Positions 2,364 through 19,737 of a stretch of DNA of 23,625 nucleotides are shown here, in pieces. The stretch is from positions 7,050 to 30,674 of IMG/VR virus record IMGVR_UViG_3300001349_000061, one strand, 5' to 3'. Position 1 is the first letter of the stretch, and every line of letters starts with the position of its first letter. Both the position numbers and the translations under genes were made by a program. The stretch comes from a virus. Below the pieces are notes generated by a model. It saw only the letters and a program-made list of their open reading frames with translations. It was not told the DNA's origin and ran no database searches.

Positions 2364-3275
2364 ATGCAAAAACCTGTACTAGTAGCCGGAGGATGCTCGT
2401 TTACTGATCCAAATAACTGGCAATATTTTTCAAAAAGCCATGGAGTTAATGAAATCAAGGCTTGGCCACAAGTTTTAGCTGATATTATTAAAGATAAGCA
2501 CGGAATAGATTATAAAGTAATTAATACTGGCCGCGGCGGAGCTAGTTTAAGTAAATCAATTGACCGAATACAAAGAGCTGTATTTTCAGAAGAGCGTAAT
2601 ATAAAGCCACATCCAGAAAATTTAATAGTACTAGGATTGACAGATTGGTGGCGAGAATACTCTACATACACTGAAATTAATTTTAACCCTGCTGTATATT
2701 ATATGTACCAACTAAAAGACAGTATAGAAAAGGGAGAACATCCCTTAGTTTCGCTTCCTCGCCATATATCAAATAATCCTGAAGACCAAGAGCGCGCATT
2801 GCGAGACTGTGAACGAATGGGTATAGAAAATTTTGCGCGTGACTGGTTACCGAATTATTATGTTTGGGGCGAGTATAGAAAAAGAAGAATTCATTATGCG
2901 TTTCAACAGATATATAATGTTATAACTATGGCAAAAGCTCTTGGATATAAAGTTTTAATTTATCAACTTTTATATCCGCTCCCTCCACACGAACATTATT
3001 TAGAAAGATTTGGTCTTGAAAACCCGCTTAAGCAAAGTATGGATGCATGGCTAATCGATCATATGCATGAAGTCTTTTTGTATGATGTTTTAAAAAAAGA
3101 AGAATCTATAATAGGATTTCCTTTTGTTAAAGTTTTAGGTGGATATAATTACGAGGCCTCTATCAATTATCAAAATGAAAAATATTGTATTGCTCCGAAC
3201 GATGGTCATCCAAACCAACTTGGACACGAACTTATAGCGAAAGAATTTTATAATGCTTGGAAAAATACAGAGTAA
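2364..3275 (+). CDS. SGNH/GDSL-type hydrolase-like protein
   Basis: This 303-residue protein has the ordered blocks of the SGNH hydrolase fold: GGCSFTDP (block I, nucleophile Ser12), NTGRGGAS (block II, residues 54-61), VLGLTDWW (block III position, about 89-96, where the usual Asn is replaced) and NDGHPNQLGH (block V, Asp280 and His282). The Asp-His spacing is one residue shorter than the common DxxH. The family includes esterases, acetylhydrolases and lipases acting on carbohydrate or lipid esters. There is no signal peptide. The start has a strong GAGGAGA ribosome site and a late promoter. It heads a cassette with radical SAM and sulfotransferase-like genes, so a role in modifying a surface glycan or virion component is possible but unproven. 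Confidence 0.75.
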   Translation: MQKPVLVAGGCSFTDPNNWQYFSKSHGVNEIKAWPQVLADIIKDKHGIDYKVINTGRGGASLSKSIDRIQRAVFSEERNIKPHPENLIVLGLTDWWREYSTYTEINFNPAVYYMYQLKDSIEKGEHPLVSLPRHISNNPEDQERALRDCERMGIENFARDWLPNYYVWGEYRKRRIHYAFQQIYNVITMAKALGYKVLIYQLLYPLPPHEHYLERFGLENPLKQSMDAWLIDHMHEVFLYDVLKKEESIIGFPFVKVLGGYNYEASINYQNEKYCIAPNDGHPNQLGHELIAKEFYNAWKNTE

Positions 3276-3303
3276 ATTTATTAGATTATATTATAAAATA
3301 AAA

Positions 3304-3337
3304 TATAAATTTAGTAAAAAGAAACCTCATATAAATC
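3304..3337 (+). promoter_or_regulatory. Two near-consensus late promoter elements
   Basis: The 90-nt gap before the radical SAM gene holds TATAAATT (3304-3311) and TATAAATC (3330-3337), each one base away from the T4 late consensus TATAAATA. The second is 28 nt from the ATG at 3366, a distance like that of the perfect copies elsewhere. The gap is very AT-rich, so chance matches are possible. Confidence 0.35.
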
Positions 3338-3365
3338 GTCTTTATATTTACGAAGAGGATGATTA

Positions 3366-4151
3366 ATGGGACTATTCTCTGACCTTAAAGGTATTACGGT
3401 ATGGTTAGATATTTCTACATTCTGTAACGCGGCGTGTCCTCAATGTCACAGGACCGATCCAAACGGATTAGATAAAATGGATTGGTTACCACTAAAGAAG
3501 TGGGATCTCGAAGAATTTGTAAATGCATTTCCTGCTGGTTCAATGGATAGAATTGGCAAATTTTGGCTATGCGGAACGTGGGGTGATCCGCTTATGAGTA
3601 AAGATCTACTAGAAATGTGTAAACATATTATAGATCACTCTAATGCAACAATTCATATTAACACTAATGGCGGATTAAGATCTCCAAGCTGGTGGGAAAA
3701 ATTAGGTAGTTATTGCGGTGATAGATTACTAATCTATTTTGATATTGATGGCATTAATAATGAAATGCATGCCAAATATCGTCGAGGCGTTGAACTAGAC
3801 AAAGTATTGGAAAACATGGAAGCGATTTCTAATACTCCAGCCAATGTAAAAGCTTTTATTATTTTGTTTAAGCACAACGAAAATTACACCTACGACATGA
3901 TGAATCTAGCTAAAATGTATGGCGCTAATGAATGTTATGTAATTAAATCAGACAGATTTTTAGTTAACAATAAATTTAGATTTGTAAATGAAGATGGAGA
4001 AGAAGAGTTTTTAGAAGAAATGACTAGAAAAGATTTATCAAGACATATTATGAATAGTGAGTGGGTTGACCGAGCAGAAGAATTTGTTCAGTCCAGACAG
4101 ACTAAAGATAAAAATCAAATGAAAGACTTAGATAATGCCTACATCAGATAA
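3366..4151 (+). CDS. Radical SAM enzyme, core domain
   Basis: This 261-residue protein has the radical SAM cluster motif CX3CX2C at Cys20, Cys24 and Cys27 (CNAACPQC), which binds the 4Fe-4S cluster that cleaves S-adenosylmethionine. A GTWGDP motif at residues 70-75 corresponds to the SAM-binding GGEP motif, and HINTNGG follows at about 97-103. The ribosome site is GAGGATGATTA before ATG. The frame stops at 4151, just where a C-terminal SPASM-type auxiliary cluster domain would be expected; that domain is encoded in the next, overlapping frame. Relatives act on peptides, sugars or cofactors, so the substrate cannot be told. The core may work in trans with the next protein. Confidence 0.88.
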   Translation: MGLFSDLKGITVWLDISTFCNAACPQCHRTDPNGLDKMDWLPLKKWDLEEFVNAFPAGSMDRIGKFWLCGTWGDPLMSKDLLEMCKHIIDHSNATIHINTNGGLRSPSWWEKLGSYCGDRLLIYFDIDGINNEMHAKYRRGVELDKVLENMEAISNTPANVKAFIILFKHNENYTYDMMNLAKMYGANECYVIKSDRFLVNNKFRFVNEDGEEEFLEEMTRKDLSRHIMNSEWVDRAEEFVQSRQTKDKNQMKDLDNAYIR

Positions 4152-4467
4152 GCCGTGTATCGAATGTATGTGGCAAAAGGATAACACTATATTAATTAAT
4201 CCTGACGGTCAAGTATATCCATGCTGCTACTTAGGAAATATACATTACACGGCACTTGCTACTAATCATAAGAGTGGACTAACTTTCTCTAAGTATGAAG
4301 TATTAGCGAAATATCATGCTCAAAGAGAAAAGTTTAATATTAATACTAATAATATAGATGACATTTTAGAATCCGAATGGTTTAACGAAACTTTGCCTGA
4401 ATCATGGGAAAGTTATGATACAACTCCTGGACCATGTTTACAGTGGTGCAATAATGCTGAGAAATAA
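4135..4467 (+). CDS. SPASM-like auxiliary Fe-S domain, separate frame from the radical SAM core
   Basis: This 110-residue frame overlaps the radical SAM core by 17 nt in the +1 register. It carries six cysteines in SPASM-like order: CIEC (Cys8, Cys11), PCC (Cys30, Cys31, after the typical NPDGQVYP strand) and CLQWC near the end (Cys101, Cys105). SPASM domains bind auxiliary 4Fe-4S clusters and normally are fused C-terminal to the core. Here an in-frame stop at 4129-4131 closes the frame just upstream, and an ATG at 4135 gives a possible independent start, without a clear ribosome site. It may be a true two-subunit enzyme, a recoded protein, or a gene broken by an indel. Confidence 0.7.
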   Translation: MPTSDKPCIECMWQKDNTILINPDGQVYPCCYLGNIHYTALATNHKSGLTFSKYEVLAKYHAQREKFNINTNNIDDILESEWFNETLPESWESYDTTPGPCLQWCNNAEK

Positions 4468-9636: not shown

Positions 9637-11595
9637 TTATTGAACAAGCGCAAACCCGTCATTATTATTACCGGTTGCAACCGCAGTAGTAGTCGAGCTA
9701 TTACTGTTATCAGTGTTGCTATTATCGATATTATTAATAACTACCTGCTGAAAGTTTTTGCCCAGTTCGCTTGCTATAGCTTGTACAGCCTGAAGAGCCG
9801 CTGCCGTTTCAGAATCTCTTGTGCTAACGCGTTCTGCTGTAGAAGAATTATTAGCATTAATTCTAGATCGAGCTACGGCCCGTGATGAGTCGTCTCCTAG
9901 ACCCACAGAAAATGTTGGCATTACTTCAAACGGAAATCTGTCTTTTATAAAGTCTGGAATAAGGCTTGATGTTGGTTTAGGTATTGTTATTCCAGGGAAG
10001 CTGAATTGCAATGATTCAGATAATATAATATATAATTCATCACCAAGGTTATTAATAAAATTAAACACTTTATCAAAAGCATTTTTAAATCCATTAGTGA
10101 TTCGTGTTACCTGGTAATTAAATTCAGCTGCGACTAGATCTCTCATTAGTCCAAAGTTATCGCCGACAAACCTTACTACGTTTTTGATTCCATTCCATAC
10201 TGGATCAACCATGTCAGTAAAACTAAATCCTCTTAAGATTTCTGCAGCGTTTTCCATACCAAACTTTTCAAGCAACCAGGCAGGTATCGTTATAAAGAGC
10301 AAGTCAAACGCTTCGGTAATACCTTTAACTACCCCAAGAAGACCTCCTTCAATACCTGCTATTAACTTCTCTCCGAAGGTAGCGCCTTCTTCTTCGCTAG
10401 TAAATCCGTCATAAAACCCTGTAACAAAATCTATAACGCTTATCAATATTTGCGTAAAGGGTCTCAATACGGTTTTCAATACAAGCTCTATAGGCTTAAG
10501 TAAAGGTTTTAAAAATCCATAAGCTTTATCAAGGAAATCAGTAACTTTACCAAATGCACCAGCGAACTTCTCGGCAATACTAACACCGTCTTCTCCTACG
10601 CCAAATGATATTTTTGGAAACTTAGGTAATTCAAGATCAATTTTACTTACATAGTCACCGACGGCACTTAAAAATCCTATCTTAGGAATTTCTGGGACCT
10701 TAAGATCTATTTTACTTATTTTGTCACCAGCTTGATTTAAAAAACTTATTGCTGGTACTGACAATTTAAATTTAATATTATCAATAAATTTACCAGCGTC
10801 ATCGATAAAATTGATTGCTGGCAACTTAATTTTAAAATCGATAAAGTTAGTTATTGCTTTACCAGCATCATCGACAAAATTAATTACTGGTAGCTTGATC
10901 TTATAGTCAATAAAATCTGCTATCTTTGTTCCAGCAGCGTCAACAAAATTGATTACTGGTAGCTTGATCTTGTAATCTATAAAGTCACTAATCTTTGTTC
11001 CAGCTGCATCAACAAAATTGATTACTGGTAGCCTAATTTTAAAATCAATAAATTCACCAATGGCCTCACCAGCAGAGGTAATAAATCTAGGAATAGGAAT
11101 TTGCGGCAATTTTATTTTACCCCAGCTCCCATCTTCAAATGTTATTTTAGGTAATTTAGGCAGCTTAAACTCTGTTATAGATTTTAGCGAGGTTCCAAGT
11201 GCGGTAAGAGACGCTTTTGCATTTTTAACTAGTCTAGGAAGATCTAAAGCTTTAAGAGCAGCATCAAAGCCGGTAAGCGATGCTAAAGATGCAATGCCCA
11301 ATGGGCTAGTTAACAGTCTTAGTGCACCATATAAAGAAGCAAGATCTCCTAAACCAATAGAGCCAGTAGTTTTTTCAAGAGCCTTACTAATACCAGCTCC
11401 GGTAGTACCACCGGTTTTACTACTGCCTTCTATCTTATCTTCTAGGCTATCTCCACCAAAAAATTTTCTTACAAGTACGCCAGTTAAATCATCGACCGAT
11501 TTAGTCGTTTCCGTTTGAGCGTCAATAAGGTCATCGGTCTGCTTCATTTCTGAACGCATAACGTGTATAAGATCGTTTAGTGTTGTATCAGCCAT
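9637..11595 (-). CDS. Tape measure protein (gp29-like role) with tandem repeats
   Basis: This 652-residue protein is the longest on the minus arm and follows the chaperone-like frameshift gene directly (ATG adjacent to the fusion stop), as in most tailed phages. An N-terminal helical region has Gly/Ala-rich hydrophobic stretches (GLGDLASLYGALRLLTSPLG). A run of about nine units of 22-23 residues at 142-337 has the core KLPxINFxDxAGxxIxxFI. Hydrophobic, helical segments follow to about residue 550 (for example ILISVIDFVTGFYDGF), and the C-terminus is a low-complexity Asn/Ser/Thr tail. Tape measures set tail length and pass through the tube to the host membrane. T4 gp29 is 590 residues. Identity rests on context and composition. 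Confidence 0.8.
   Translation of the reverse strand: MADTTLNDLIHVMRSEMKQTDDLIDAQTETTKSVDDLTGVLVRKFFGGDSLEDKIEGSSKTGGTTGAGISKALEKTTGSIGLGDLASLYGALRLLTSPLGIASLASLTGFDAALKALDLPRLVKNAKASLTALGTSLKSITEFKLPKLPKITFEDGSWGKIKLPQIPIPRFITSAGEAIGEFIDFKIRLPVINFVDAAGTKISDFIDYKIKLPVINFVDAAGTKIADFIDYKIKLPVINFVDDAGKAITNFIDFKIKLPAINFIDDAGKFIDNIKFKLSVPAISFLNQAGDKISKIDLKVPEIPKIGFLSAVGDYVSKIDLELPKFPKISFGVGEDGVSIAEKFAGAFGKVTDFLDKAYGFLKPLLKPIELVLKTVLRPFTQILISVIDFVTGFYDGFTSEEEGATFGEKLIAGIEGGLLGVVKGITEAFDLLFITIPAWLLEKFGMENAAEILRGFSFTDMVDPVWNGIKNVVRFVGDNFGLMRDLVAAEFNYQVTRITNGFKNAFDKVFNFINNLGDELYIILSESLQFSFPGITIPKPTSSLIPDFIKDRFPFEVMPTFSVGLGDDSSRAVARSRINANNSSTAERVSTRDSETAAALQAVQAIASELGKNFQQVVINNIDNSNTDNSNSSTTTAVATGNNNDGFALVQ
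10585..11172 (-). repeat. In-frame repeats of about 69 bp inside the tape measure gene
   Basis: Seven well-aligned units begin at protein residues 184, 207, 230, 253, 275, 297 and 320, with more diverged copies upstream from 142. Three central units are nearly identical at the DNA level: the segment with ACAAAATTGATTACTGGTAG recurs 69 bp apart. Recent unit duplication is likely there, older elsewhere. Confidence 0.85.
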
Positions 11596-12485
11596 TTATT
11601 TGCTCAAACTCTTGTCTCTTGCTCTCTCATTTTCTTCTTTAATATGTTCAATAAGCAGTGTTAAATAAATTTCCCTCTCCCAGGGTACCATGTTTTCTAT
11701 TTCAGATAACGAATAATGGTGATGTTGCATCAAAGCAAAATTCGTTTTAAAATATCCAACTAATGATTCATGAGAAAGGCATATTACAAAAAATCGTTCA
11801 TACCCTGGAGCGTCATATGATTTTCATGTCCGCATGATTTACACTTATAATCTAGCTCGTGCTTTAGGGTTGGCATTGCCTCAACAAATTCGCGAATCTT
11901 TGAAAACTGATCTCCACTTAGTGATTCGATAAACTCCATAATCTCTTCTTCAGATTCATCTCTAAAATCAATTCTTTCTTGTGGAGTCTCAACTGCTTCA
12001 ATGCAACGAGAAACCATTTTAAATGTCATTTCTGTTTGCGATTCAAATTGTCCAAGATCTAAAAGATCGTTATATCTAGGCCAACGCAACGATAGCGTAA
12101 GCTCATCAGTAATAGCCACCTTTGACTCTATTTCTGGCACTTCAATTTGAATAGCTTCGATAGGAATAATAGCGTCATTTGATGTTTCGCATTCACTACA
12201 TTTTAAACCTACCTTTGTAGTTTCACCTACTGACTTGGCTCGAATACGTGTAAACAAGTATTCTACATCAAACGTTGTAAGTTTGTTTTTGTCAATAGTA
12301 TCCTGTACGCACGATTCAATGGTGTCAACAACGGCATTCATTGCTTGACCTTGATCCTGAGATTCCATCGCAAGCATAAGAACCTTTTCTTCTTTTACAA
12401 GGTACGGTCTAAATCTTACTGCTTGTTTCGTTGAGGGTATTACTACGTCATACTTTGGTACATTATTAATTTTTGGTAAAGCCAT
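11596..12485 (-). CDS. Frameshift fusion of gp26-like protein with gp51-like extension (-1 recoding)
   Basis: If ribosomes slip back one base at T TTT TTG (11793-11787), the gp26-like chain of 233 residues continues for 63 more, to a stop at 11596 that abuts the tape measure ATG. The extension reads VICLSHESLVGYF at first, then MQHHHYSLSEIENMVPWERE and a charged helix. This fits the C-terminal part of two-frame tail assembly chaperones such as lambda gpG-T, which bind the tape measure and tube protein. The frame is open without a stop across the whole gap. The only internal ATG (44 codons) has no ribosome site. The total is 296 residues. Efficiency cannot be judged from sequence. Confidence 0.75.
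11784..12485 (-). CDS. 26: gp26-like baseplate hub assembly / tail chaperone protein, zero-frame product
   Basis: This 233-residue protein resembles the T4 gp26 family of T4-like phages (MALPKINNVPKYDVVIPST, then RPYLVKEEKVLMLAMES). It has two CxxC pairs, Cys96/Cys99 and Cys215/Cys218, the second followed by His220 and His223, so a zinc site is likely. In T4, genes 26 and 51 work in baseplate hub assembly, just upstream of the hub and tape measure genes. The family motif and position are clear; the exact biochemical role is not. The zero-frame stop follows the slippery site directly. Its start lies 1 nt from the previous stop, so it is coupled to the tube-like gene. Confidence 0.78.
   Translation of the reverse strand: MALPKINNVPKYDVVIPSTKQAVRFRPYLVKEEKVLMLAMESQDQGQAMNAVVDTIESCVQDTIDKNKLTTFDVEYLFTRIRAKSVGETTKVGLKCSECETSNDAIIPIEAIQIEVPEIESKVAITDELTLSLRWPRYNDLLDLGQFESQTEMTFKMVSRCIEAVETPQERIDFRDESEEEIMEFIESLSGDQFSKIREFVEAMPTLKHELDYKCKSCGHENHMTLQGMNDFL
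11787..11793 (-). promoter_or_regulatory. -1 ribosomal frameshift site T TTT TTG
   Basis: Zero-frame codons are TTT TTG followed by the stop TAA, and both tRNAs can re-pair with TTT TTT after a -1 slip. AGGG, an internal ribosome-binding-like element, lies 9 nt upstream (11806-11803), close to the spacing that stimulates dnaX frameshifting. No clear downstream hairpin was seen. Confidence 0.75.
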
Positions 12486-13072
12486 TATACAGATCTCCAG
12501 TCTTTATATGATAATTGCACATTCAATTCAACCATTCCATTTTGTTCGTTATTAAACTGTATAGCGTTCATGGTTGTAGGAAACGCCTTGTCTAATACGC
12601 ATGTGTACACAGATTTTGCACTCGTAAATAAATCAATATCTATGTCTACGTTCAGCTGCCCGATATTAAAATTAATATCAATCGGAAGATCAAGAGCAGC
12701 GCCTTTTTCTAATTGTTCTATTCTCACTTCAAAACCATATTCGTCAGGATAATTCAAATCTTTAGTATCAAAGTTTATAATAAGACTTTGCCAATATTCA
12801 AAATACTCTTTGACCGCATAATCATTTGTAACATGAAACGTCAATGTCACATCATCCTGAGCATACATATATGCTTGCTTAACTTGTTTCATACCAACGA
12901 TACGTTCATTCGTAAGTATCTGGCGACCTGGAAGCTGCACGTCTTTACACAATAAATTTAATTGACGAGTACTGACGATACCAGGTAAAGCAGGAAGATA
13001 TACTCTAAATAAATTAGGGGAAGCAATGCCACGGCTAATTGCACCTTTAAGTTCATCTACAGAAAATGACAT
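12485..13072 (-). CDS. Tail-tube-fold protein (gp19/gp54-like)
   Basis: ATG at 13072 overlaps the upstream stop (TAATG); a longer frame to 13159 would run through that gene. The 195-residue protein has the gp19 pattern: an N-terminal helix, SPNLFRVYLPALPG, LLCKDVQLPGRQI, a mid-chain DVTLTFHVTNDYAVKEYFEYWQS, and a C-terminal strand ELNVQLSYKDW. T4 gp19 forms the tail tube; gp48 and gp54 share the fold and initiate the tube on the baseplate. The place between gp4 and the gp26-like gene, rather than after a sheath gene, favours a gp54-type initiator over the main tube subunit, but sequence alone does not decide. Confidence 0.7.
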   Translation of the reverse strand: MSFSVDELKGAISRGIASPNLFRVYLPALPGIVSTRQLNLLCKDVQLPGRQILTNERIVGMKQVKQAYMYAQDDVTLTFHVTNDYAVKEYFEYWQSLIINFDTKDLNYPDEYGFEVRIEQLEKGAALDLPIDINFNIGQLNVDIDIDLFTSAKSVYTCVLDKAFPTTMNAIQFNNEQNGMVELNVQLSYKDWRSV

Positions 13073-13656
13073 TAGATAGCAGCCCTTGAATCTTTGTATA
13101 CAGTAGATTTGCCAGACTTTTGAAAATCTGCGGTTGGTAGAAACGTAGCGATCTCCCACTCAGGCGGAGGTACGTATGCAAACCTACTTCTTACATTTGA
13201 ATTAAGATAGTGTTTAAAGCATGGCTTAAAATATTTTAACTTCGAAGCTCTTTTAAGTGTATTGTACGTCGCCTGGAATTTTGTAGTCTCATCATATTTT
13301 CTATTGTTTGTTATATCCATAAGACTATCTAACATTTTTGCACGTAGTGGTACAGGTAGATAATGTAGATTTAATCCATAGAATCCGCCTGGTGCAGGAC
13401 CAACCACTACTGTCAACGGAAAGCTATCGTAATACGGCAGGTCATCCTTTGTTTTAGGATCGTAAAAGAACATATACATGTTGCCTGCAATGCCACGATT
13501 CTTTAGCTCAATAGGATCTTCCTTCATCAATTGAGAACGATTGACTTTACCCATAGCTTGCGCTTTGCGTCTAAACCAATTCATTGACTCTTTTGTGCGA
13601 GGATTGATCCCTGCTCTAAATGCTTCATATTCTAGTTTTTGAAATATATTTGCCAT
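13072..13656 (-). CDS. Conserved T4-like phage structural protein, function unknown
   Basis: This 194-residue protein carries the conserved core YMFFYDPKTKDDLPYYDSFP and GGFYGLNLHYLPVPLRAKML, known to me from marine T4-like phages as a virion-associated or baseplate protein without settled role. The C-terminus is basic and ends KDSRAAI. There is no ribosome site before the ATG. A perfect late promoter ends only 5 nt upstream, so its own transcript would begin at or near the start codon. It can also be read from the gp4 transcript. The next gene overlaps by 1 nt. Confidence 0.75.
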   Translation of the reverse strand: MANIFQKLEYEAFRAGINPRTKESMNWFRRKAQAMGKVNRSQLMKEDPIELKNRGIAGNMYMFFYDPKTKDDLPYYDSFPLTVVVGPAPGGFYGLNLHYLPVPLRAKMLDSLMDITNNRKYDETTKFQATYNTLKRASKLKYFKPCFKHYLNSNVRSRFAYVPPPEWEIATFLPTADFQKSGKSTVYKDSRAAI

Positions 13657-15914: not shown

Positions 15915-17307
15915 TTATGTACCAAACGATCCGCATGAGTATGAATTAGAATCTATTATACTCTCAACTCAGCGTAATGCTCATGATGTAGATATTACTA
16001 CATCTATGGTTGAACTTGAGATCTTTGAGCATCTCGATAGAGCTTATTTGACAGGATCTTTGACATTTGTCGATGGCGGCCGTGTTATTGAAATCATAGA
16101 TTTTCAGGGTACAGAATACGTTGATATACAACTAAAGCTGCATAATACTTCGCATAGGGTAGTTAAACGGTTTATCGTAAGGCAGGTTAATTCCATTGTT
16201 CCTTCAACCGATACTACAGACGTTGTTACTCTTGCACTTATTGATTACGATGCATACTACAGCTCGCTTGTGAATGTAAATAAAATGTATGAGGGTAAGC
16301 CAAGTAAAATTATCGGTGATATATTACGAGATAATTATGGATCAAGTAAAAGAGTATCTAGAGCAGGTGAAGCTAATATCCTACAAGAACAAAACTGGGA
16401 TACAGCAAGCGAAATACCTGAAGTAGCTGCACAAGCTATTACAAAATCTACGTCGTATGAATTACAATCTGCATTTAGATATATCGTGCCAAACTTAACG
16501 CCGCTCGAAGCCATTGAGGTTATTAAGAAAAGAACTACCGGTTTAACTGGTACACCATTCTTTTGCTTTGCATCACTTGCTGATAATAACTTTAGATTCT
16601 TTGATCTATACACGCTCATACAACAACCACCGATTAATGTAGATGGTCCGTATTTTTATTCTGGTCAGTTAACACAATCATTGCCAAGCAGCGGTTCAGA
16701 CTTAAGTAAATCTATATCTCATATGAAAACACCAAAGAATGCTAATACACTAGAACTAATTGGTAATGGCGATGTAGGTGCTTTGTATGAATTTGTAGAC
16801 ACGACACATGGATTAGAGTTTAACGTTGCCTATGATTTAGACAAAGTAATGAAAAATCTATTACAAACTAATGCATATCCTGCAGCTGATACAAGAACAA
16901 CCTTTAATGAAATTCCTATTAGCGAATATAAGTCAAAGCGTGTACATAAGATCGCTACAGCAAATACGTACTACGATTCAAGGAATATATATGAAGAGAG
17001 TTCGGCATCAAAGCACGCAGCAAAGAGTATCCAGAAATCAGTACGCAATCTTCTTGGTAAATCTATATTAGAAATAACGGTACCTGGCCTTAACTTCATG
17101 CCACAAGGCGGCCATAAAACTATTGGAAGAACCTTGTCAGTCGTTTCTATTGCTGACATTACTCAACACAGAGAGATATATGATCGCAAACGTAGCGGCG
17201 ACTATTTAGTATATGCTTCTAAACATTCGTTCACGCAAGACAGATATAGCGTTGGGTTAAGTCTTGTAAAGATCGCTAATTACAGAGGAAACACTGCAGT
17301 CAGATGA
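15907..17307 (+). CDS. 27: Baseplate hub protein, gp27-like
   Basis: This 466-residue protein starts MPDYVPNDPHEYELESIILS and contains the pattern of the hub ring protein: VELEIFEHLDRAYLTGSLTFVDG, RFIVRQVNSI and a large C-terminal part ending in KRSGDYLVYASKHSFTQD-type strands, as in the torus domains of gp27 and the D proteins of other contractile phages. T4 gp27 (391 residues) forms the trimeric torus that holds the gp5 spike. The gene directly before the gp5-like gene, with a 4-nt overlap (ATGA), fits this role. Primary-sequence similarity to T4 gp27 is low, so the call relies on pattern and position. Confidence 0.75.
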   Translation: MPDYVPNDPHEYELESIILSTQRNAHDVDITTSMVELEIFEHLDRAYLTGSLTFVDGGRVIEIIDFQGTEYVDIQLKLHNTSHRVVKRFIVRQVNSIVPSTDTTDVVTLALIDYDAYYSSLVNVNKMYEGKPSKIIGDILRDNYGSSKRVSRAGEANILQEQNWDTASEIPEVAAQAITKSTSYELQSAFRYIVPNLTPLEAIEVIKKRTTGLTGTPFFCFASLADNNFRFFDLYTLIQQPPINVDGPYFYSGQLTQSLPSSGSDLSKSISHMKTPKNANTLELIGNGDVGALYEFVDTTHGLEFNVAYDLDKVMKNLLQTNAYPAADTRTTFNEIPISEYKSKRVHKIATANTYYDSRNIYEESSASKHAAKSIQKSVRNLLGKSILEITVPGLNFMPQGGHKTIGRTLSVVSIADITQHREIYDRKRSGDYLVYASKHSFTQDRYSVGLSLVKIANYRGNTAVR

Positions 17308-18197
17308 TGGAACATTACGGAGATAACGTAAGGTGGTTTATTGGTGTAGCAACTAATAATCTAGATCCTCTGCAACTGGGAAGAGTGCAGGTGAGAATTT
17401 TTGGTATTCATTCCAGAGATCATATTGCTATTCCTAATCATGCATTACCATGGGCGACTGTCTTACAGGGTACACATTCAGGCGGTACATCGGGTATCGG
17501 TATGCTGCCACAAATTTTACCAGGTGCACAGGTATTTGGTATGTTTTTAGACGGTAAAGAATCACAATTGCCATGCGTCGTTGGCGTAATGCCAAAGATT
17601 GAAATACCATCTGAACAGCAGTTATCAGGTATGCAGCTAAAGACTTCCACGTATAGCATAGGTTATGGCGTCGGTCAAGTAGATCCTGCTCTTGCAAGAG
17701 CAGCTGGCCTTACGACTGAACCCAATGTAGTACCAATCGGTGCTGGTACAGTTGGCTCTACAAATGTTGAAAGAGCGTTTAATTACTTTACGAGTCGAGG
17801 CTTTAGCGAAAAGCAAGCTGCAGGTATGGTCGGCAATTTAATTGTAGAATCAGGAACTGAATTACCTCCACACGGGCCCAGGGGAGACGGTGGGAAGGCT
17901 GCAGGTATTGCACAATGGCATCCTGGCCGTAGAAATATATTTGAACAGGTTTATGGTAAACCATGGCAATCTAGTACGTTTGAAGATCAATTGCAGTTTA
18001 TCGTATGGGAATTAAATAACGCTGATAGTCATTCAGGCAGTTTAAATAAAAAAGCTGGTGATGCTTTAAAACAAGCAAACACGGTACAAACTGCAGCAAC
18101 CATATTTGATGCGCAATACGAAAGAAGTTCTGGCGCTGCAAGATCTCGTAGGATCAACAGCGGATTGGCTGTATATGAGGAATATGCAAATGGTTAG
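17304..18197 (+). CDS. 5: gp5-like spike protein: OB-fold domain plus phage tail lysozyme
   Basis: This 297-residue protein has two parts. Residues 8-98 form the gp5 OB-fold (WFIGVATNNLDPLQLGRVQV, IPNHALPWATVLQG, GAQVFGMFLDGKESQLPCV), which docks on the gp27 torus. Residues about 152-295 form a phage tail lysozyme of the Phage_lysozyme2 type (NVERAFNYFTSRGFSEKQAA, GNLIVESG with likely catalytic Glu182, GIAQW at 201-205). This hydrolyses peptidoglycan during infection. T4 gp5 (575 residues) also carries a beta-helix. Here the chain stops after the lysozyme, and the beta-helix is in a gene two positions downstream. A second ATG at 17307 is also possible. Confidence 0.88.
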   Translation: MMEHYGDNVRWFIGVATNNLDPLQLGRVQVRIFGIHSRDHIAIPNHALPWATVLQGTHSGGTSGIGMLPQILPGAQVFGMFLDGKESQLPCVVGVMPKIEIPSEQQLSGMQLKTSTYSIGYGVGQVDPALARAAGLTTEPNVVPIGAGTVGSTNVERAFNYFTSRGFSEKQAAGMVGNLIVESGTELPPHGPRGDGGKAAGIAQWHPGRRNIFEQVYGKPWQSSTFEDQLQFIVWELNNADSHSGSLNKKAGDALKQANTVQTAATIFDAQYERSSGAARSRRINSGLAVYEEYANG

Positions 18198-19737
18198 TTT
18201 TAATAGGGTTAACTCTGCGCTATCAAGTTATAATCAAAGGTTAAGTACAGCCGATTTTGCCAGTGCTGCTCCTACAGTTTTGGGTGAATATAATGCAAAG
18301 TTAACGTCAACTGTAGGCAAAACAGTAGGGCAAAAAGTTAACGGATTTGAGGCAATAAGCCAATTAGAAGACTATAGCGGTCAGTTAGGTGATAATCTCT
18401 TTGGCCTTGCTACAGTAGCTTTAACATCAGAAGTTGAAGGCTTCCTTGATACTCTAATTGAAAACATTGAAGACGCCTTTACTAACCTTGGTGGCGGCCA
18501 TGCAGAGTTTACTGATGTATTAACAGCCCTTGGAACACTTGCTGTATTAACAGGTACTAATCCAGGTTCTGCATTTTTAAAGAGTTATTATGGTGGTAGT
18601 TCGTCGAATGCCATGGCGGTACTCTTATCAAAAGCAACTGGCAAAAACGTATCGCAACTCTTAAGTACAGTAGAAACCTTACAATCTGCAGGCTCAAAAC
18701 AATTTGTACAGGCAGCGTTTGGAAGAGTCTTATCAGAAGTACTAAATCCTATTATTGCTGAGTTCAACAAAAAAGTAGATCTAAATCTTGGTACTGCAAT
18801 TGATAAAGTACTACAAGCAATTGTTGACGTTGTTGATAGTCCGGTAGCATTGATTATTAACGATCTTACCGGAGGTAAGTTATTAGGCGCTGAGCTAAAC
18901 AACGCCATTCGTTTGTTATCAAATGGGCAGTATGCAGAAGCAATTCTACTTGTATCGCAAAATTCAAATGAACCATATTCGGTTATCGAAGAAAGATTGT
19001 TGAACATTGATACAAAAATATCAACACGAATTACATATACAGGATCAACGACGCTGCCAGTCTTTGATATCGGTTCAAATGCGAATGGATGGGAAGGTGT
19101 TGCAACTACGACAATCACAAATCGCTCAAACGCATCGAGCCCTATTAATTACAATTTTACAAGACTAGGCGGTGTACAAGAACTTGAAGCGGATATGCGA
19201 TCAGCTACAAGAGATATTAGTGAAACTGTTATCCATTGGTCTGCAACATATTTGGATCAAGATATTGGTTCTGAAGAAATACATGGATGGCATAGACAAC
19301 GTGGATTCAGTGGGATTGGCTATCATTATGTCATTCGTCGTGATGGAACAATAGAACGTGGCCGGCCGATTAATATTACTGGTGCACATGCTAAAGCCAA
19401 TGGTCATAATAACTTAAGTATCGGTGTTTGCCTTGTTGGTGGGTACACTGTTCCATCTGCAGTTGGTCTACGAAATCCACCGGCAGGTTCGGAATCGTTT
19501 ACAGAAGCTCAAACAAAGACTATGAATGAATTTTTAAATACGTTTTATAAAGTATTTCCTGGCGGTCAGGTATTCGGACATAATGATACTGATCCAAATA
19601 ATAAAATCGATCCAGGATTTGACGTATCTAAATACATTCGTAATACTTTTAATAAGAGTAACGTGACAATCGGAACATCCCAACCCCTTTCACCTGCGCA
19701 AATCGCACAAGCTAGAGCAAATAATGTGGTATCATGA
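18190..19737 (+). CDS. Virion protein with C-terminal N-acetylmuramoyl-L-alanine amidase
   Basis: ATG at 18190, with GAGG 9 nt upstream, is preferred over upstream in-frame starts that lie within the lysozyme gene. The 515-residue product has an N-terminal region of about 340 residues with no recognised domain (helical and Gly/Ala/Leu-rich). An amidase_2/T7-lysozyme-type domain follows: TVIHWSAT (His349), GYHYVIRRDGTI, INITGAHAKANGHNNLSIGV, FGHNDTDP (His464) and KIDPGFD (Lys472, Asp474). His349, His464 and Asp474 would bind zinc; Asp replaces the T7 Cys ligand, as in AmpD-type relatives. It would cut the peptide from peptidoglycan. Its place within the spike genes suggests it is part of the virion. 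Confidence 0.85.
   Translation: MVSFNRVNSALSSYNQRLSTADFASAAPTVLGEYNAKLTSTVGKTVGQKVNGFEAISQLEDYSGQLGDNLFGLATVALTSEVEGFLDTLIENIEDAFTNLGGGHAEFTDVLTALGTLAVLTGTNPGSAFLKSYYGGSSSNAMAVLLSKATGKNVSQLLSTVETLQSAGSKQFVQAAFGRVLSEVLNPIIAEFNKKVDLNLGTAIDKVLQAIVDVVDSPVALIINDLTGGKLLGAELNNAIRLLSNGQYAEAILLVSQNSNEPYSVIEERLLNIDTKISTRITYTGSTTLPVFDIGSNANGWEGVATTTITNRSNASSPINYNFTRLGGVQELEADMRSATRDISETVIHWSATYLDQDIGSEEIHGWHRQRGFSGIGYHYVIRRDGTIERGRPINITGAHAKANGHNNLSIGVCLVGGYTVPSAVGLRNPPAGSESFTEAQTKTMNEFLNTFYKVFPGGQVFGHNDTDPNNKIDPGFDVSKYIRNTFNKSNVTIGTSQPLSPAQIAQARANNVVS

Follow-up and report, generated by a model that had tools for sequence, protein, structure and literature searches.

Vladimirov et al. reportedly found in 2022 that frameshifting is conserved in several T4-like groups, and T4 is said to use its genes 26 and 51. 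The slip heptamer of phage lambda differs from poly-T, and the P2 frameshift uses T TTT TTG. In the part of a 2016 review that treats these systems, lambda gpG and gpGT are likewise a short product and its -1 extended form acting on the tape measure protein, and P2 and its relatives have a frameshift counterpart, gpE and gpE+E', with a 2- to 3-fold higher efficiency, which we liken to the present locus by description (PMC5009743). The same part of the review excepted T4 from the conserved G-T frameshift (PMC5009743). In passages of later papers, Vladimirov et al. 2022 are credited with the finding that some T4-like phages have one short and one fused longer gene with no frameshifting (PMC10885494), and poly-T slip signals in T4-like TAC-N genes are credited to Vladimirov, Gautam and Davidson, Virology 2022;566:9-15 (PMC12846349). 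Judged by title, the literature that we searched held no other paper on gp26/gp51 frameshifting. As far as these citing passages describe the T4-like tail chaperones, gene family and scheme are the same as here; the present finding is sound, its kind has already been published, and the locus is one further marine member. What is added here is a larger comparison of relatives and a codon-level signal for an upstream Shine-Dalgarno-like element.

The locus lies in the window, by which we mean the whole 23,625-nt stretch of viral DNA that was analysed, and the feature is confined to its minus strand (Table 1). Because the gp26-like gene ends AAC GAT TTT TTG TAA, the preliminary description was right in placing the heptamer T TTT TTG there with a stop codon adjoining it. 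Likewise present, as it described them, are an AGGG that precedes the slip site by 9 nt and a 63-codon open -1 frame that reaches the tape measure ATG. This frame is open from position 11823 to its TAA, the ATG at 11595 abuts that stop with zero gap, and the short form joined to the extension gives a product of 296 aa. One coordinate needed a small correction, since 11596, previously given as the start, is the final base of the -1 stop codon on the minus strand. Other genes upstream of gp26 were assigned by PHROG to a DNA end protector and to head closure. For the tape-measure-like ORF the Pfam search returned no match, and its identity is a weak assignment, drawn from position and from one weak match to PHROG 1272 (tail length tape measure).

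Table 1. Features of the tail chaperone locus in the window
Feature	Position	Strand	Details
Tail tube family (gp19/gp54-like) gene	12485..13084	-	PHROG 45 tail tube, 4.8e-31; upstream of gp26
gp26-like gene, putative short form of tail assembly chaperone (TAC-N)	11784..12485	-	233 aa
AGGG, weak Shine-Dalgarno-like element	11803..11806	-	9 nt upstream of heptamer
Slippery heptamer T TTT TTG	11787..11793	-	P codon TTT 11792-11790, A codon TTG 11789-11787
gp26-like 0-frame stop TAA	11786-11784	-	read from the sequence
-1 frame extension (gp51-like, putative TAC-C)	11596..11787	-	63 codons 11787-11599 plus TAA 11598-11596
Tape-measure-like gene	9637..11595	-	652 aa; PHROG 1272, E 3.1e-4 (weak), and position

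The gp26-like protein belongs to PF12322 (T4_baseplate; 1.3e-62, 211.8 bits against a gathering cut-off of 24.5, covering profile positions 2-218 of 219) and to PHROG 150 (5.2e-63), and its AlphaFold model has a mean pLDDT of 89.8. When this model was compared with the PDB, three entries stood out, all of them matching within residues 1-95 only: 3fgx (Z 7.9), the tail assembly chaperone of HK97 (2ob9; residues 1-87, Z 7.2, with an rmsd of 4.3 over 85) and YqbN 3klu (Z 6.8). Outside these three no row was above Z 2.8. We take YqbN and 3fgx to be prophage relatives of tail chaperones. By itself, Foldseek scored the model against 2ob9 at E 0.33 and probability 0.90. Because the tool warns that Z below 8 may mean just a common arrangement, support for a chaperone fold is moderate, and we state with moderate confidence that the predicted short form resembles the HK97 tail assembly chaperone at its N-terminal part. 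Several of the best matches in a viral model library bear the name baseplate hub subunit or baseplate hub assembly chaperone. Zinc ribbons were also considered for gp26 and rejected, the Pfam matches being under the cut-off. Set beside lambda by features, without a sequence alignment, the window differs in its poly-T heptamer, in a short form that is much longer and has two CxxC pairs, and in its T4-like genome. The earlier placement of the locus in a lambda G/GT-type scheme agrees with the kept slip site, the open -1 frame that encodes a conserved domain with no start of its own, the abutting tape measure ATG, the tail tube gene upstream and the chaperone-like fold.

To compare relatives we assembled 89 loci, consisting of the window, L001-L003, L004-L007, L015 and 80 IMG/VR loci, the latter being the best 80 of at least 599 relatives in a scan that used two motifs located in the first third of gp26. 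Of these loci 87 were the window itself or were fetched via gp26, and two (L006 and L015) via the extension; the slip site was never the search query. The gp26 proteins of L001 and L002 are 100% identical to that of the window. Removal of ten near-duplicates and of L018, L020 and L092, in which the -1 frame runs off the contig, left 76 non-redundant loci, and nine additional loci outside the 89 were inspected by eye or by string search. A tblastn search with the gp26 protein found 721 phage records with one place each, a search that a diverged paralog could escape.

An in-frame T TTT TTN is present at the gp26 end in 89/89 loci, with a final base of T in 51, C in 28, A in 6 and G in 4. The 0-frame stop follows 0-3 codons past the slip in 87 of the 89, and 8 and 9 codons past it in L006 and L058, respectively. 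The codon preceding the P codon is GAT, AGT, AAT, TCT or GCT in every one of the 89 loci, so its third base is always T. Calculated from the genes' own codon use, this third-base T in 76/76 non-redundant loci has a log10 P of -17.1 and TTT at the P codon in 76/76 a log10 P of -10.7, values that ignore shared ancestry and thus overstate independence. At the 16,807 other codon positions in the gp26 genes of the 76 non-redundant loci, an in-frame T TTT TT is found 10 times. The heptamer at the gene end is far beyond chance. At the P codon, all 2,850 pairs with the same residue also have the same codon; at the codon before it this holds for 86% of pairs. Downstream, codon identity in the -1 frame is 43% for the first ten codons and 46% for codons 12-43, and at the codons flanking the slip site we found no further constraint (0.43 against an average of 0.46 in the -1 frame). 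In marine T4-like relatives the slip site, the stop and the open -1 frame are therefore all kept, as had been proposed for comparison, while the low synonymous change expected near the site was found at the slip codons and at an upstream Glu codon and not at other flanking codons. A broad synonymous constraint around the site was rejected, because the constraint is found solely at those positions, although over the site the window is identical for 43 bases to L018, the nearest distinct relative among the best 80 of at least 599.

The -1 frame extension matches PHROG 634, ‘baseplate hub assembly catalyst’, at 6.2e-28. It also matches positions 238-281 of PHROG 150, the gp26 family, at 2.6e-6, and because of this PHROG 150 seems to include two-part proteins. 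With the 63-aa extension as query, tblastn found 594 phage records, mostly cyanophages. The gp51 domain occurs once in the 30,674-base record from which the window is taken, itself a fragment, and this single occurrence is in the -1 frame. Among relatives, 36 codons separate the slip site from the P[WFY]E motif of the extension in 76/76 non-redundant loci, and in the 86 loci whose frame ends inside the contig the -1 frame yields 58-68 residues if the two residues of the slip site are taken as the first. In 468 pairs, substitutions in the extension at the successive -1-frame codon positions numbered 4749, 2634 and 10184, a pattern which indicates that the extension is protein-coding in the -1 frame. 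We hold it to be very probable, on comparison of sequences, that this is the tail chaperone locus of a marine T4-like (Kyanoviridae-related) myovirus and that it gives a short and a long product via -1 ribosomal frameshifting.

We infer the slippage itself, its frequency, the two products and their roles from what the sequence provides, that is, from the anatomy of the locus, homology, conservation of the slip site and the -1 frame, the absence of a start and the fold resemblance of the short form. Most ribosomes would translate the gp26-like gene as far as its UAA, releasing the short chaperone of 233 aa. A minority, with the P and A sites on UUU UUG, would slip back one base to UUU UUU and continue in the -1 frame, making the 296-aa long form with its gp51-like C-terminal domain. 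By analogy with lambda gpG and gpGT, the tape measure protein, the product of the next gene, would have a coat of many short copies and a few long ones, and the C-terminal domain of the long form would recruit tail tube subunits.

Upstream of the slip site we calculated pairing with the anti-Shine-Dalgarno sequence of E. coli, which may not be that of the host. In relatives, 8-base pairing peaks 7 nt upstream of the heptamer with a mean of -6.1 kcal/mol. On average the best pairing within the stretch that was searched is -6.2 for the natural sequences, compared with -4.9 for synonymous shuffles (z -10) and -1.8 for random in-gene sites. Codon choice shows the same preference at two positions, in tests that ignore ancestry: the Glu codon before a conserved Gly is GAG in 23 and GAA in 11 cases compared with 423 and 1243 elsewhere (p 4e-7), and the conserved Gly upstream of the slip favours GGA/GGG over GGT/GGC (p 0.005). 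For Lys in the same upstream place AAG is not favoured, with 7 AAG to 18 AAA against 596 to 864 elsewhere. In the window the element is CAG GGT, which includes the AGGG and pairs at -4.0 kcal/mol, and 40/40 synonymous shuffles pair at least as well. Because shuffles of the window do as well, the Shine-Dalgarno-like element belongs to part of the group and is not shared by this window; we see a signal that it may be kept by codon choice in relatives and not in the window. Over this element the window carries CCAGGGUA (11808-11801, minus strand), which is complementary to UACCCUGG (11687-11680, minus strand) in the conserved P-W codons. The two lie ∼110 nt apart, and the 141-nt fold has a z of -2.5, with 3/200 shuffles as good. 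Such pairing could hide or time the Shine-Dalgarno-like element, or could be due to chance.

Local structure downstream of the slip site in the window is nothing unusual (z +1.1; -1.2 and +1.2), and a downstream stimulator in the window is not claimed, local structure being absent. In relatives, single-sequence folding of 75 nt downstream gave a mean z of -1.3, with 23/76 below -2, compared with -0.3 and 8/76 for control windows, and a simpler shuffle over 70 nt gave a mean z of -1.7. RNAalifold gave an empty structure with the alignment as well as with shuffled controls, and is thus uninformative on a consensus structure. Some relatives may therefore have downstream structure, as far as folding of single sequences can suggest it.

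In both T4 and Aeromonas phage 25 the genes for gp26 and gp51 stand apart, one on each strand, and in each phage both proteins belong to PF12322, as does gp26 of the window. Against an HMM of the marine fusion, T4 gp26 aligns to columns 11-236 and ends at the slip point, whereas T4 gp51 aligns to columns 24-280 and crosses it. An HMM of the extension matches T4 gp51 (1.5e-8 among 14 sequences) and not gp26. These alignments indicate that T4 encodes a short form (gp26) and a long form (gp51, an in-frame fusion that also carries the C-terminal extension) as two paralogs, so that, unlike the window, it has its long form in one frame of a second gene on the opposite strand. Hence the proposal of one short and one extended product rather than two genes suits the marine locus but not T4 itself. 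A further T4-like locus, L106, was excluded from alignment A3 because its gp51 is interrupted: at 3001-3746 the T4-like gp51 breaks off near residue 120 and the remainder is open in another frame, through sequencing error or in reality.

We also examined seven distant T4-like records, namely Aeromonas PX29, Vibrio PG216 and Vibrio R10Z, Sinorhizobium phiM12, Nitratidesulfovibrio SRB7757, Stenotrophomonas Mendera and Rhizobium RHph_I9. T TTT TTC, TTG or TTT is kept in frame in 7/7, and L108 and L109, which match the Vibrio PG216 gp26 at 100% and 88%, keep the heptamer also. In four of the seven (PG216, R10Z, Mendera and RHph_I9) the stop reads TAATG or TGATG, which makes a separate gp51 start possible in those lineages, and of those four Mendera alone has a fair Shine-Dalgarno (-5.8) before the junction ATG. 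A wider scheme can tentatively be drawn, although we think it rather unlikely as a whole: the Shine-Dalgarno-like element, often GGAGGG and ∼7-9 nt upstream, would stimulate the marine T4-like frameshift, and lineages with TAATG or TGATG would make three products (the short form, the fused long form and a free C-terminal domain), intermediate to the two-gene arrangement of T4.

Does the extension have a start of its own? If there were two genes joined by translational coupling, ribosomes would terminate at the UAA of gp26 and start again close by in the -1 frame, giving a free gp51. Many records do annotate a separate gp51, among them those of P-SSM2, S-PM2, S-CRM01 and Rhizobium RHph_I9, the Vibrio PG216 record has a separate hypothetical gene at the gp51 place, and some records have an ATG overlapping the stop or just past it. 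When a wide span is taken, beginning at the upstream -1 stop and extending 12 codons beyond the slip, 43/76 non-redundant loci have an ATG, GTG or TTG (GTG or TTG only in 28, ATG in 15, none in 33). Against this, in the window the stretch from the upstream -1 stop to the slip is free of ATG, GTG and TTG, and the first candidates in the -1 frame are a TTG at offset 18 and an ATG at 19, both within the conserved domain. From 1 codon before to 6 after the slip, 57/76 loci have no start, 10 have ATG and 9 have GTG or TTG, and of the 22 candidate starts in this narrow span just one reaches -4 kcal/mol in pairing with the anti-Shine-Dalgarno, compared with 57 of 71 gp26 starts. The tape measure start of the window is itself weak (-2.4), so the missing Shine-Dalgarno at gp51 candidates is not decisive alone. 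The gp51 annotations of C48C1 (L004 3283-3387) and Mosig (L006 2555-2689) start inside the domain and cut conserved residues, which is expected for a gene without its own start. Moreover, the heptamer is kept even where an ATG exists, and the spacing from slip to P[WFY]E is fixed. We consider coupling very unlikely. A separate gp51 with ribosome site and start, which would have spoken for two genes, is thus mostly absent, with a junction ATG in some relatives, and the frameshift reading of the preliminary description stands on the heptamer in all loci, the constant 36-codon spacing, the gp51 domain in the -1 frame and the startless majority.

T runs can cause polymerase slippage, and transcriptional slippage on the T run would make nearly the same long product. 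A run of 7 or 8 T covers the site in 51/89 loci, but 38/89, the window included, have six T only, and the codon-phase constraint together with the upstream Shine-Dalgarno-like element of relatives fits slippage of the ribosome, so we regard a transcriptional origin as very unlikely. That the -1 ORF is a decayed gp51 remnant and the heptamer a chance poly-T, an Asp-Phe-Phe coincidence in an AT-rich genome, is hardly credible, for although Phe is mostly TTT in gp26 genes (fraction 0.74), control [DSNA]F[F/L] tripeptides elsewhere in these genes carry a heptamer in only 2/14 cases, compared with 89/89 loci and 76/76 non-redundant loci at the gene end, and the -1 ORF is under protein-level constraint.

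With ribosomal frameshifting as the preferred reading, what cyanophage, pelagiphage and related genomes annotate as ‘baseplate hub subunit’ and ‘hub assembly catalyst’ would be better read as one two-product tail chaperone gene. In some of these records the start given for a separate gp51 truncates the conserved domain; others have no gp51 entry. The fold match and the larger set of relatives support the published assignment as T4-like tail assembly chaperones.

Several other genes of the window were observed. On the plus strand, Radical_SAM (7e-14) and SPASM (2.6e-7) matches lie in two frames, at 3366-4151 and 4135-4467, with a 17-base overlap that holds an internal ATG. These two domains commonly share one protein, and the pair could be a split gene, a case of coupling or a sequencing indel. 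A Fe-S cluster biosynthesis gene of the HesB/IscA type is at 966-1247 on the minus strand (PF01521, 2.6e-10). In the baseplate region, a gp5-like OB domain with a tail lysozyme is encoded at 17304-18197 on the plus strand, and an Amidase_2 ORF at 18106-19737 on the same strand overlaps it, placing two cell-wall enzymes in this region.
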